64,000 nt of DNA from assembly GCF_900105625.1 (NCBI RefSeq), contig NZ_FNSD01000001.1, positions 3,410,001 to 3,474,000 on the forward strand, in the 5' to 3' direction. Made by a program: the position numbers and the translations under genes. The notes beneath the pieces are model-generated. The model made no database searches. It worked only from the letters and a program-made list of their open reading frames with translations, and was not told the origin of the DNA. The first letter of the stretch is position 1; every line of letters starts with the position of its first letter. Source of the stretch: Terriglobus roseus. Its GTDB lineage: Bacteria > Acidobacteriota > Terriglobia > Terriglobales > Acidobacteriaceae. Below are positions 1 to 3,723 of the stretch, piece after piece.

Positions 1-589
1 CGGTCGCCACGATGTCTTTCGCAACGCAATCCTGAATGATTGGTCCGTAAATTGAGGCAAGGAACAGATTCGCCAACGTTGGGCTAGTTGGAGCACCTTG
101 GGGGAGGTGGAAATCGCATGTAGTTAGTTTTGTGAGTATTTTCGAAACCGGCGCCGAGCAGCATAGGATCTCGTGCCAGACCTTGTAAACATGTTCGTTG
201 GTAAGATTTGGATAGTAGCTTTTGATATCCATCTTGACGATGGTGGTAGCGCCCAAGTGAGCGGCCGCATGCTCACGAACGCTGCGTTTCGGGACCGCCC
301 CAAAGAGAAAATTAGGAAGGTTGAGTGGGAGCAGAAGTCTAGAGAGGATCCTCCTTTGAATCTTCTTTAACTCCACACCCGGGTTATCGATTTTCCTGAG
401 CTTTTTAGTTTGCGGCTTCTTGGCATGGGGCTTGAGCGGTTTTGCCTGCTCAAACGGGGAGTAGTTTGCCTCCCATTCAGCTAAGCGCAACAATGCCTCT
501 CGGCTTGCGCCGAGCAGATGTTCGAGTTCGCGGAGGCTGCGTAGTGGCAGCTGATCCAGAGGGAGACGTTTGTTGCGCTGAAGAGTCAT
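1..589 (-). CDS. retron-type reverse transcriptase, N-terminal part (runs off the left edge)
   Basis: The open frame reads 196 residues from an ATG at 589 to the window edge with no stop. It shows the retron/group II-like RT core: the IQRRIL segment (about residues 78-82), the domain-X-like stretch FGAVPKRSVREHAAAH (96-111), the catalytic motif MDIKSYYPNL (120-129, first Asp at 121) and LPQGAPTSPTLANL (162-175). The YADD box and the thumb that recognises the RNA would lie outside the window. In retrons the RT reverse-transcribes part of its own ncRNA into msDNA. The consensus NAxxH of retron RTs reads HAAAH here. The frame overlaps the preceding HTH gene by 113 nt. No strong ribosome site precedes the ATG, so the start is uncertain, but the N-terminal helix region looks genuine. 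The RT assignment is firm; calling it a retron rather than another RT class also rests on the upstream RNA candidate. Confidence 0.88.
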   Translation of the reverse strand, partial: MTLQRNKRLPLDQLPLRSLRELEHLLGASREALLRLAEWEANYSPFEQAKPLKPHAKKPQTKKLRKIDNPGVELKKIQRRILSRLLLPLNLPNFLFGAVPKRSVREHAAAHLGATTIVKMDIKSYYPNLTNEHVYKVWHEILCCSAPVSKILTKLTTCDFHLPQGAPTSPTLANLFLASIYGPIIQDCVAKDIVAT

Positions 590-881
590 GAGAGTCTCTA
601 TCAACCTGCATTAAGAGTTCTGTAAGTGCCAGAGACAAACTCTCAATCTGTCCTGGTTTCGCTCGCTGCGCATCAGCCTCGCTTATGCCGAGCAAGCTAA
701 GAAGATGAAAAGGCATCCTTAGAGCTTGGGCCAGTTTTTCGATGGTATCGAGCGTGGGCTGGCGCTTTCCGGATTCGATGAGAGAGAGATAGCTCCGATC
801 GATGTTAGCGCGGTCCGCTAGTTCGCCTTGAGAAAGATCAGCAAGCGAGCGTGCTACACGGATAGCTTTTGAATAATTCAT
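477..881 (-). CDS. Xre-family helix-turn-helix protein linked to the RT
   Basis: This is a 134-residue protein when started at the ATG at 881, which has AGGTGG about 9 nt upstream; a longer in-frame start at 956 lacks such a site. Residues about 4-60 form a classic HTH_3/Xre domain (SQGELADRANIDRSYLSLIE is the helix-turn-helix). It is followed by a short hydrophobic segment and a Ser/Thr/Arg-rich basic tail. Its 3' end overlaps the RT gene and the 75-aa ORF ends 43 nt upstream, so the three are probably co-transcribed. It may repress the system's own promoter or act as the retron's accessory protein; the sequence does not decide which. HTH partners are known for some retron types. Confidence 0.85.
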   Translation of the reverse strand: MNYSKAIRVARSLADLSQGELADRANIDRSYLSLIESGKRQPTLDTIEKLAQALRMPFHLLSLLGISEADAQRAKPGQIESLSLALTELLMQVDRDSHDSSAQQTSPSGSAATTQPPRTRTSARRKPRGIVALS

Positions 882-924: not shown

Positions 925-1152
925 TTACGCGATGACTTGAGCATGTGCGACTTCATAGGCTGCTTCTGCGATGCGAGCTACAACCAAGCGGACTTTTTCG
1001 TGGTCTAGCCTTGTCGCCTTCTGCAGCTTCTTTAGATCGCGGATGCCCTCGATCAATGCTTCGCGCTGCCCCGACGTCAGTTCGTTGTTTGCGTCACCGA
1101 GCATCTGCTTAATTAGTTCGATGCACGATTCGATTAGCTTTGACGTTTTCAT
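925..1152 (-). CDS. small 75-aa protein of the RT island, function unknown
   Basis: Starting at the ATG at 1152, with GAGGAAA 5-6 nt upstream, this encodes a 75-residue, mostly helical, charged protein (begins MKTSKLIESCIELIKQM). No known domain is recognised. It lies between the candidate structured RNA and the HTH gene on the same strand, which makes it a candidate accessory or effector component. The open frame continues upstream to 1338, but that stretch overlaps the RNA candidate and reads as non-coding, so the shorter start is preferred. Confidence 0.6.
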   Translation of the reverse strand: MKTSKLIESCIELIKQMLGDANNELTSGQREALIEGIRDLKKLQKATRLDHEKVRLVVARIAEAAYEVAHAQVIA

Positions 1153-1193
1153 AGTTGTTTCCTCTTCTCCCGTTTGAGCGGGGGCGCGTTCGC

Positions 1194-1378
1194 CGGAACC
1201 AGAGAAGGAACGAATGACGTCGGGGAGCCGTTCTCTGAGAGAGCCTAGCGAACACTGGGGCGCGCTGGCTGCCAGGGGTTGAGGCTTCGCCTCCCCGTTC
1301 TGGACTTTAGGGGCAGGAATTACCTGCCTGGGAATCAAATGATTCCCAATTACGCCTATTTCTAGGCACCTGATTCCG
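1194..1378 (-). ncRNA. candidate retron msr-msd RNA
   Basis: Read on the minus strand, this 185-nt stretch begins with CGGAATCAGG (1378-1369) and ends with TCTGGTTCCG (1203-1194). The two pair over 10 positions with two G-U pairs, like the a1/a2 stem of retron ncRNAs. After the first arm come three compact hairpins: a GCCTA stem with GAAA loop (1367-1354), a 7-bp GGGAATC stem (1347-1330) and a 6-bp GGCAGG stem (1328-1312), resembling msr. The rest could be msd, with a CGGGGAG/CTCCCCG pairing (1297-1291 with 1227-1221) enclosing smaller stems. The pairings were found by eye; the msd part is the least certain. It lies upstream of the small ORF, HTH and RT on the same strand. Confidence 0.6.
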
Positions 1379-1444
1379 ATAAATCACACCAAGGATTGTC
1401 AAAGAGCTTTTCGAAAACATCAGCAGTAGCGCCGATCCATTGCT

Positions 1445-1473
1445 AGGCTATGACCTTGCTCCGCCCGTGTCAA
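1445..1473 (-). promoter_or_regulatory. putative sigma-70 promoter for the RT island
   Basis: On the minus strand a perfect TTGACA (1473-1468) is followed after 17 nt by TAGCCT (1450-1445). A second TTGACA lies at 1403-1398, directly upstream of the candidate RNA, but has only a poor -10 element. The remaining spacer up to 1616 is AT-richer than its surroundings and shows no gene. Confidence 0.45.
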
Positions 1474-1616
1474 CACAAAAAATGACTCAAAGAAACATTA
1501 TTTACACAGCAACCGATGCCATCGTCCATTACTAGCGTTCGTGCCGAATTAAAACACTTCATCTGGAGGGCAAGTACGACAACGGCAACCGGCTACCGGC
1601 TAATCTCGGACAGCTC

Positions 1617-2610: not shown

Positions 2611-3723
2611 ATGATCAAGGGATTGACGGTGGTGAAGCCGGTGGCTTCGGCGGCGGCCTGGGAGCGACTTTCGTCGTTGTTTGCTGAGCTGGGATTTGAG
2701 CCGGGGCGTGGCTGGGATGACGGCACGGGCAAGGGCGCGTCGTTTCTGGCGCCGGTCGGCAATGCGGAGTTTGTTACGGGCCGGATGCCCGGTGTGCCGG
2801 AGCTGCTGGTCGAATGCACGCAGATCGACATTGTGCACGGCATTGTGAAGCGATGGCTGGCTGCAGAGGCTCGTACGGAAGAGATCTCTTTGCGCCTGTC
2901 AGAGGTCGTGGAGACGCATTGGAAGTCGCGGATGTTTACGGTGGACCTGAGTGATTCGCTGCCTTCGACATTTTTGGCGAGCCAGCAGAATGCAGGTCCT
3001 TCGACTTCGCTGCGCTCCGCTCAGGATGACAAATCCGTGGGAGGAACCAGCGGATTGCGCTTCGCTCAGGATGACAAGTCCGTAGGGGGATCGGGGCCGT
3101 TGCAGTTTGGCTTCTGGGAGCGTGAGGATGTGCTGGCTGGATTGCCGGTTGCGGTTGAGGGTGACCTGAGCGCGGCTGGCATGAAGTTCGGCATTGTGAC
3201 GGCTCGCTGGAATGCGGTGATCACGGATCGTCTGCTGCAGGGTTCGCTCGATGGCATTCTGCGGAGTGGCGGTCGTCGTGACGACATCGATATTGTGCGT
3301 GTGCCGGGTGCGTGGGAGGTTCCTGCGGCGGCTCGGATGATGGCGGATCTGCGGGATGCGGATGGCAAGCGGAAGTATGACGCGATCATCACGCTGGGCT
3401 GCCTGCTGCGTGGCGAGACCGCGCACTACGAGGCGATTTACAACGAGGCAGCGCGCGGCATCGGGCAAAGCCAGCAGGAGACGGGCATTCCGCATGCGTT
3501 TGGCGTGCTGACCTGCGAGACGCTGGAGCAGGCGCTGAATCGTGCCGGTGTGAAGGCCGGGAACAAGGGATTTGAAGCAGCCGTGGCGGCGATCGAGATG
3601 GTCTCGATCGCACGCAAGATCGGTCACGCGGCAGCGGGTGAGCATGATGGCAGCGGCGTGTCCGCTGGCCGTGCGGCTCAGGCTGACGTGGACCGTGCGG
3701 TTGCATTGGAAGGTGGCAAGTGA
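2611..3723 (+). CDS. ribH: 6,7-dimethyl-8-ribityllumazine synthase with N-terminal VOC-like extension
   Basis: The 370-residue product is more than twice the length of ordinary lumazine synthase (about 155 residues). The enzyme proper starts near residue 190 (MKFGIVTARWNAVITDRLL) and carries GAWEVP, the substrate loop and GETAHYEAI with the catalytic-region His; it condenses a ribityl-amino-pyrimidine with a butanone phosphate in riboflavin synthesis. Residues 1-105 resemble a VOC/glyoxalase-like half domain (GLTVVKPV...LGFEPGRGW). Residues about 128-156 are the translation of an intergenic-type repeat (SLRSAQDDKSV, then LRFAQDDKSV). The start ATG at 2611 has AAAGG just upstream. nusB follows 49 nt downstream, a common pairing. 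Confidence 0.92.
   Translation: MIKGLTVVKPVASAAAWERLSSLFAELGFEPGRGWDDGTGKGASFLAPVGNAEFVTGRMPGVPELLVECTQIDIVHGIVKRWLAAEARTEEISLRLSEVVETHWKSRMFTVDLSDSLPSTFLASQQNAGPSTSLRSAQDDKSVGGTSGLRFAQDDKSVGGSGPLQFGFWEREDVLAGLPVAVEGDLSAAGMKFGIVTARWNAVITDRLLQGSLDGILRSGGRRDDIDIVRVPGAWEVPAAARMMADLRDADGKRKYDAIITLGCLLRGETAHYEAIYNEAARGIGQSQQETGIPHAFGVLTCETLEQALNRAGVKAGNKGFEAAVAAIEMVSIARKIGHAAAGEHDGSGVSAGRAAQADVDRAVALEGGK
2993..3077 (+). repeat. dispersed intergenic-type repeat inside the ribH reading frame
   Basis: A 41-nt stretch (2993-3033), beginning CAGGTCCTTCGACTTCGCTG and ending in CTCAGGATGACAAA, recurs with one mismatch in the rplX-rplE spacer (39344-39384). A second partial copy, GCTTCGCTCAGGATGACAA, follows at about 3056-3077. 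Here both copies are in frame and translated in the linker between the two domains of RibH. Confidence 0.85.

Follow-up and report, generated by a model that had tools for sequence, protein, structure and literature searches.

The window, by which we mean the whole 64,000-nt stretch of Terriglobus roseus DNA analysed here (positions 3410001-3474000 of a 4.8 Mb genome), starts within a reverse transcriptase (RT) gene, of which 401 bp lie outside the window start. We fetched the full RT gene in L003, the same locus with flanking sequence, where L003 position equals window position plus 10000. A Cro/C1-type HTH gene adjoins the RT gene and overlaps its start, and a small ORF lies upstream of the HTH gene, as in type VI retrons (Table 1). 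Among 52 PADLOC families RT_VI was the top match of the RT, with RT_III-A the runner-up (E 3e-45). Because SP_VI, HTH_VI and RT_VI are the best PADLOC models of the three genes and stand in the order SP-HTH-RT, with the SP_VI match weak, we assign the unit to the type VI retrons; its RNA is therefore a candidate msr-msd. The type VI class is reportedly that of the classification of Mestre et al. 2020.

Table 1. Features of the retron unit at the start of the window, in the order in which they are read
Feature	Position	Strand	Basis or remark
Retron unit, 5' to 3': promoter, RNA, small protein (1152-925), HTH (881-477), RT (589 onward)		-	
Promoter -35, TTGACA	1468-1473	-	Read directly; 17-nt spacing to TAGCCT; consensus match
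Promoter -10, TAGCCT	1445-1450	-	Consensus match
boxB-like hairpin, ATCGGC-GCTACT-GCTGAT	1419-1436	-	Read directly; between promoter and boxA
boxA-like antitermination element, GCTCTTTGACAAT	1395-1407	-	Core TCTTTGACAA; just before a1, after promoter
a1, 5' arm of closing helix	1369-1390	-	Predicted fold; cognate pairing test
msr hairpin 1, GCCTA-GAAA-TAGGC	1354-1367	-	Read directly; predicted fold
msr hairpin 2, GGGAATCA..TGATTCCC	1330-1347	-	Read directly; predicted fold; preceded by linker GCGTAAT
msr hairpin 3, GGCAGG..CCTGCC	1312-1328	-	Read directly; predicted fold
Putative msd, reverse-transcribed part	1204-1311	-	Between msr hairpins and a2 in predicted fold; limits inferred
GC-rich main msd stem, CGGGGAG with CTCCCCG	1297-1291 with 1227-1221	-	Predicted fold
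a2, 3' arm of closing helix	1183-1203	-	Directly 3' of TTCCTTCTC, a stretch common to relatives; pairing tests
Shine-Dalgarno-like AGAGGAAA of small protein	1158-1165	-	Predicted fold
Small protein (SP_VI)	925-1152	-	75 aa; PADLOC SP_VI E 0.0028 (weak); aligned with 20 other loci
XRE-family HTH protein (HTH_VI)	477-881	-	PADLOC HTH_VI E 8e-21; Pfam HTH_3 4e-14
Retron RT (RT_VI), 5' part	1-589	-	PADLOC RT_VI E 1.7e-64; Pfam RVT_1 1.3e-17; full gene L003:9600-10589

Relatives were drawn from 299 class genomes, GTDB contigs (the best 80 of 423), 396 phylum genomes, 300 family genomes, viral contigs, and phage and plasmid records. An RT_VI match alone is unspecific: at E 1e-30 it occurs in 37 of the 299 class genomes, and ten of 30 RT_VI loci inspected (L005-L034) have an HTH match, one of the ten being the window's own copy. 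In the 36 loci compared the HTH gene stands before the RT gene and is itself preceded by a small ORF of 44-84 aa (122 aa in one locus), and the leader ahead of this ORF is 212-369 nt long in the 31 leaders folded, measured from boxA or from a chosen 5' anchor. The order SP-HTH-RT was read in relatives from Acidobacteriota, Patescibacteria, Proteobacteria, Staphylococcus and Peduoviridae phages. The closest named RT relatives, among the best 80 of 423 GTDB contigs, are Acidobacteriaceae and Acidobacteriota MAGs. By eye, L225, from a genome of the window's family, is identical to the Acidobacteriaceae locus L048 across leader and small protein. Since every locus was found via its RT, the presence of an RT beside the RNA is not independent evidence. 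Type VI retrons were also seen on Alphaproteobacteria plasmids (L201, L202, L203, L205 and L207) and in P2-like, Mu-like and other phages (L196, L197, L198, L199 and L200); on the Roseobacteraceae plasmids L202 and L203 a TIR-domain gene lies directly 3' of the RT gene.

The transcript is preceded by a promoter-like pair, and the best such pair ends 27-37 nt before the boxA-like element in 14 of 18 leaders. A hairpin stands ahead of boxA in rRNA leaders as well, and one is often predicted before boxA in the relatives of the window; by energy it stands out weakly (5 of 18 reach p<=0.05; mean z -1.3), with a z of 0.24 for the window's own. The core TCTTTGACAA of the boxA-like element occurs once in the window (0.08 expected), and the same 10-mer precedes each of the two 16S genes of this genome at a distance of about 150 nt (read in L195; the second operon has a match at equal distance). 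A boxA-like pattern, TCTYTRAVA, written after reading the leaders and searched within 420 nt before the small protein, is found in 19 of 36 type VI loci, with 1.0 expected from shuffles, and 17 of the 19 matches lie at the 5' end of the RNA, 207-364 nt upstream of the small protein. The count of 36 leaves out near-identical copies (L012=L049, L013=L050, L014=L117, L225=L048; L198, like L196; L203, like L202), L051 (leader masked by N), L213 (without a clear small protein), L038 (small protein not recognised), L040 (HTH at the locus edge) and L209 (without an annotated HTH). Ten of the 11 leaders of the window's clade carry the element and the eleventh, L211, is one letter off; the 11 phage and plasmid record loci lack it, save for one misplaced match in L200. 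The gammaproteobacterial MAG locus L087 (Sedimenticola) and the viral contigs L146 and L180 carry the element too, so its presence and absence are not simply split by phyla. Among non-VI RT loci, 8 of 67 have it within 800 nt.

Could TCTTTGACAA belong to an operator, or have arisen by chance, rather than be boxA? The 10-mer as such is not unusual in this genome, where it matches 16 times and its reversed control 11 times, the boxB-like hairpin before it is itself weakly supported, and the phage and plasmid record loci offer just the misplaced match in L200. Set against this are the recurrent place of the matches before the small protein, the fact that in the leaders inspected they follow the promoter-like pair, and the same element ahead of both 16S genes; for TCTTTGACAA as boxA it is position and recurrence that count, and we consider an operator or chance match unlikely. 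As a boxA, the element would open the RNA as boxA opens the rRNA leaders of this host, which seems to be a new trait for a retron. Our literature search, most subscription papers being outside its coverage, found no paper that joins retrons and boxA; boxA elements are known for 16S RNA and CRISPR arrays (available part of PMC7862264). Possible HTH operators also lie upstream of the promoter: a GTCATTT-like motif in ten of the 18 leaders (window 1480-1486), and TTCGCT..AGCGAA-like palindromes, read ahead of the promoter at several type VI loci of phages and plasmids.

The sequence-only reading had proposed a retron RNA whose ends pair over 10 positions, and these do pair throughout: on the minus strand CGGAATCAGG (1378-1369, 5') faces TCTGGTTCCG (1203-1194) with 8 Watson-Crick and 2 G-U pairs. 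This core is real, and the helix that contains it is longer than was claimed: GGTGTG-a-TTT-a-TCGGAATCAGG (1390-1369) against TCTGGTTCCGG-c-GAA-CGCGCC (1203-1183) forms a predicted closing duplex of 20 bp with single-base bulges and an energy of -25.9 kcal/mol. The three tight hairpins, one with a GAAA loop, and the longer GC-rich stem that it described were likewise found where Table 1 places them. It had put the RNA directly upstream of the RT; the RNA is upstream and in one unit with the RT, on the minus strand, with the small-protein and HTH genes intervening. The minus-strand fold (-81 kcal/mol, z -4.8) is better than those of 200 of 200 dinucleotide shuffles, and the plus strand of the same stretch likewise beats its shuffles (z -3.5), as expected from the inverted repeats.

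Eleven leaders make up the window clade (the window, L048, L226, L229, L228, L227, L230, L049, L050, L211 and L212), and all have at least three hairpins after a1; in L226 the third one listed is a later stem, and the expected third is present in its fold. By plain count, a [CG]TAA[CTG] motif lies in or near the msr linkers of 8 of the 11. In 10 of the 11 the unconstrained fold pairs the 5' end with the region ahead of the small protein and encloses the hairpins and a long GC-rich part, and in these 10 the number of end pairs is reached by 7-42 of 100 shuffles; the fold of L212 closes no end pairs. Over all clades, 30 of 31 folded leaders before the small protein have z below -1.7 (31 of 35 leaders are covered, L205-L208 being outside the count), and in these single folds the excess of end pairs over shuffles is weak within the window clade, and none is clear outside it. 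MAFFT alignments of the leaders misplaced hairpins.

Do a1 and a2 pair because they belong together? We computed the duplex energy of each a1 with each a2 from fixed zones (a1, from 17 to 47 nt downstream of the base that opens the boxA-like element; a2, from 78 to 18 nt upstream of where the small protein's start codon ends), a procedure free of alignment or choice of helix. In the 18 type VI leaders with a boxA-like element the mean was -22.8 kcal/mol with the leader's own a2 and -18.3 kcal/mol with those of relatives, a difference reached in 0 of 50,000 permutations. The 11 clade leaders gave -23.8 (own) and -19.6 kcal/mol (foreign; 1 of 50,000), and seven leaders of other clades (L007, L008, L014, L087, L180, L010 and L146) gave 451 of 50,000. 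With wider zones the counts were 37 (clade), 195 (other clades) and 0 (all 18) of 50,000. A zone 140-100 nt upstream of the start, taken as control, gave 18,311 (clade), 12,336 (others) and 16,907 (all 18) of 20,000. A test anchored on a conserved CCTT in nine leaders gave 4 of 200,000 (zone variants 2 to 2,601, the latter for the widest zones), with 18,266 of 20,000 in its control zone, and a further cognate test on the 11 clade leaders gave 43 of 100,000. The control zones have the same genome composition and no signal. The 18-leader test leaves out L009 and L200, where the boxA-like match is misplaced, and all loci without boxA, since the a1 zone cannot be placed in them by rule; it keeps L211, which together with L212 is in the 11- and 18-leader tests and not in the nine-leader test. 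These pairing figures should be read as strong and not as literal, because the zones were set after reading the sequences.

Taken singly, the leaders say less. The duplex beats its own shuffles at p 0.018 in the window (500 shuffles), 0.018 in L050, 0.034 in L230 and 0.042 in L227, and the remaining seven of the 11 clade leaders are above 0.1, so that 7 of 11 miss the 5% level; a leader's own a2 is the best single partner for 4 of 11 a1 zones (3 of 9 in the CCTT-anchored test). For the window alone the a1/a2 duplex is moderately unusual, and it is the comparison with relatives that makes the pairing convincing. The covariation that the sequence-only reading had asked of homologues is there: the arms read CGGAATCAG/CTGGTTCCG in the window, CACTTCCC/GGGAAGTG in L050, CCCTTTCC/GGGAAGGG in L230, AACAGAGG/CCTCTGTT in L007 and GCGAGTCG/CGACTCGC in L087, and a1 goes on pairing with a2 though most letters turn over between leaders. 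In L007, L008, L009 and L014 another inverted pair, TAGTCTG-like before and CAGACTA-like after, flanks the small-protein gene about 300 nt apart. We dropped this pair (TAGTCTGT/ACAGACTA) as a candidate a1/a2, because L007, L008 and L014 also pair a1 with a2 before the small protein.

A conserved protein reading through 1194-1378 would have spoken for coding sequence, and an open frame from 1338 does cross the RNA into the small protein. Comparison of the frames in relatives rules such a protein out: by eye, the frame has no start codon ahead of the small protein's own in L211, L226, L227, L228, L229 and L230, and in L048, L212, L049 and L050 the extensions are open and of different, unrelated sequence. 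The comparison with RNA families that had been suggested came out negative, since Rfam 15 has nothing over threshold for the RNA and no retron family among its matches to E 10. The weak S4-Clostridia and freshwater-1 matches were taken as chance.

The RNA might alternatively be a cis-regulatory leader of the small-protein operon (an attenuator or translation switch) that is never reverse-transcribed, the RT acting otherwise or copying something else. In predicted structures the Shine-Dalgarno-like AGAGGAAA is partly paired with the 5' end of the RNA, either with bases just 3' of boxA or with the boxA region, and the structure should therefore affect translation. A UAGC-like priming motif is also absent beside a1 (read directly), and msDNA is so far putative; in Eco1 the rule is a priming guanosine after a1 in a UAGC-like context (seen in part of PMC11754653). 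A G sits 1-3 nt after a1 in nine leaders (by eye), as chance often gives. The 1390-1150 stretch, read directly, contains no run of at least four T and hence no intrinsic terminator, which speaks against an attenuator, and the succession of a1, hairpins, GC-rich stem and a2 is the layout of a retron and exceeds what an attenuator needs. The retron-type RT in the same operon points the same way, weakly, since the loci were found via the RT. On balance we think a purely regulatory leader improbable. That the stretch is functionless, its inverted repeats a chance folding of GC-rich DNA, is favoured by the modest single-sequence statistics of several relatives; the fold z of -4.8, the cognate pairing in 18 leaders with its negative control, and the recurrent place in the operon make it extremely improbable. 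The type VI genes and the a1/a2 covariation support the retron layout first proposed, in which the RNA is a retron-type template, the candidate msr-msd of a type VI retron, with production of msDNA putative.

For the window's small protein a three-helix bundle is predicted (AlphaFold2, pLDDT 87, pTM 0.71, from a 20-sequence alignment), and a search of PDB folds gave no confident match (best E 0.29, to part of DnaK). Its family could be aligned across Acidobacteriota, Patescibacteria, Chloroflexi and Gammaproteobacteria at 11-28% identity to the window's protein; tblastn against plasmids found none, and in 61 genomes (its own and relatives) the window's copy was the only one. Ten phage and plasmid loci (nine from Proteobacteria or their phages, one from Staphylococcus) have peptides of 47-67 aa with a basic start and a hydrophobic end, which may resemble membrane-active toxins. 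Retron RTs have the motifs NAxxH and VTG and the catalytic box YxDD, in which the Y is usually conserved. In the window's RT VTG is present, the N of NAxxH, kept in 35 of 38 aligned RTs, is replaced by H (HAAAH), and YxDD reads WVDD, with both aspartates kept. W[VI]DD stands for YxDD in 11 of 12 clade RTs (the exception, L212, has FVDD), and W occupies that first position in 0 of 26 other aligned RTs.

We conclude that the locus is very probably a type VI retron in which one promoter drives a boxA-led minus-strand transcript carrying the msr-msd, small protein, HTH and RT, with the msDNA and defence mechanism as proposed below. The gene content and order, the covarying a1/a2 and the recurrent boxA-like element are established at the level of sequence; the steps of the mechanism are proposed as follows. 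The transcript would open with the hairpin and the boxA-like element and continue through a1, the three hairpins, the GC-rich msd and a2 into the genes for the small helical protein, the XRE-type HTH protein and the RT. NusB/S10 bound at boxA would keep Rho from terminating RNA polymerase along some 250 nt of RNA that is structured and not translated. By analogy with other retrons, the RT would bind the msr, prime in branched fashion from a guanosine near a1 and copy the msd into msDNA of roughly 70-110 nt. The HTH protein likely represses its own promoter, as the GTCATTT-like motif and TTCGCT..AGCGAA palindromes suggest. The small protein would be held in check by the RT-msDNA complex, perhaps together with the HTH protein, and phage damage to that complex would free it, following the general abortive-infection logic of retrons; its toxicity and a role in anti-phage defence are suggested by analogy only. 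Effector sequestration and phage-triggered release are stated for retrons in general (PMC12548924, in the part available).

A more speculative idea, and in our estimate a long shot, is that the retron senses host Nus antitermination itself. The msr-msd and genes would be fully transcribed only while NusB, S10, NusA and NusG work normally, and if a phage captured Nus factors for itself, as lambdoid N does, the supply of template RNA and msDNA would stop and the small protein already made would be freed. If true, the process under the retron's guard would be antitermination of the rRNA type, and the WxDD RT that runs through the clade would mark a second departure.

How does the type VI unit compare with known systems? 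Retron RNAs are generally laid out as a1/a2 arms around msr and msd. The candidate RNA resembles those of Retron-Eco1 and other studied retrons in the a1/a2 pairing around msr hairpins and an msd stem and in its place upstream of the genes (as far as PMC11754653 was available); it differs from Retron-Eco1 in having no UAGC beside a1, in HTH and small-protein genes that replace the known effector, and in its putative msDNA. It shares with other type VI retrons RT_VI, the HTH DNA-binding protein gene that overlaps the RT start and the small auxiliary protein, and similar loci occur in the phages P2_2H1, KS5, ST147-VIM1phi7.1 and MuM16-1. The same trio in Mu-like and P2-like phages has been named type VI (accessible text of PMC8541194). 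Unlike the phage and plasmid type VI loci with their short basic peptides, the window clade has a small protein of 66-75 aa, a boxA-like leader and the W[VI]DD RT. Promoter, boxA and then a long untranslated RNA also characterise boxA-led rRNA operons and CRISPR arrays (portion of PMC7862264 at hand), whereas here the RNA is a retron template and is followed by protein genes.

Judged from its sequence, then, this is a retron of a clade with two unusual traits, the boxA-like leader and the WxDD RT. Type VI is a little-studied retron type, named in one paper of the literature searched, and the covariation-backed RNA map tells the experimenter what to express and where to seek msDNA. The operon logic around the small protein opens its suspected toxicity to test, and natural variation at an RT residue that is usually conserved is available in the WxDD clade. 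The leader suggests that the NusB/S10 complex takes part in retron expression, as reported for CRISPR arrays (PMC7862264, in part). PADLOC includes msr-msd models (PMC9252829, in the section available).

The locus is accessory: at the corresponding place in the congener G011 the retron interval has no match over its whole length. Beside it, the region of a thioredoxin-like gene is 87% identical between the two over 807 nt, and the match stops 27 nt past that gene. Such an absence is as expected of a mobile element. Other ORFs occupy the place in G011, one of them with an HVHLLL motif that we take to be that of REP-associated transposases. At L003:9200-9293, beside a TetR gene, lies a repeat with three matches in the congener stretch L257; it looks like a REP-type repeat at the far edge of the retron. 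Farther into the window, an ORF presumably for a lumazine-synthase-like protein contains, in frame, a GCTCAGGATGACAA-TCCGT-type repeat in two near-copies (about 3000-3095).
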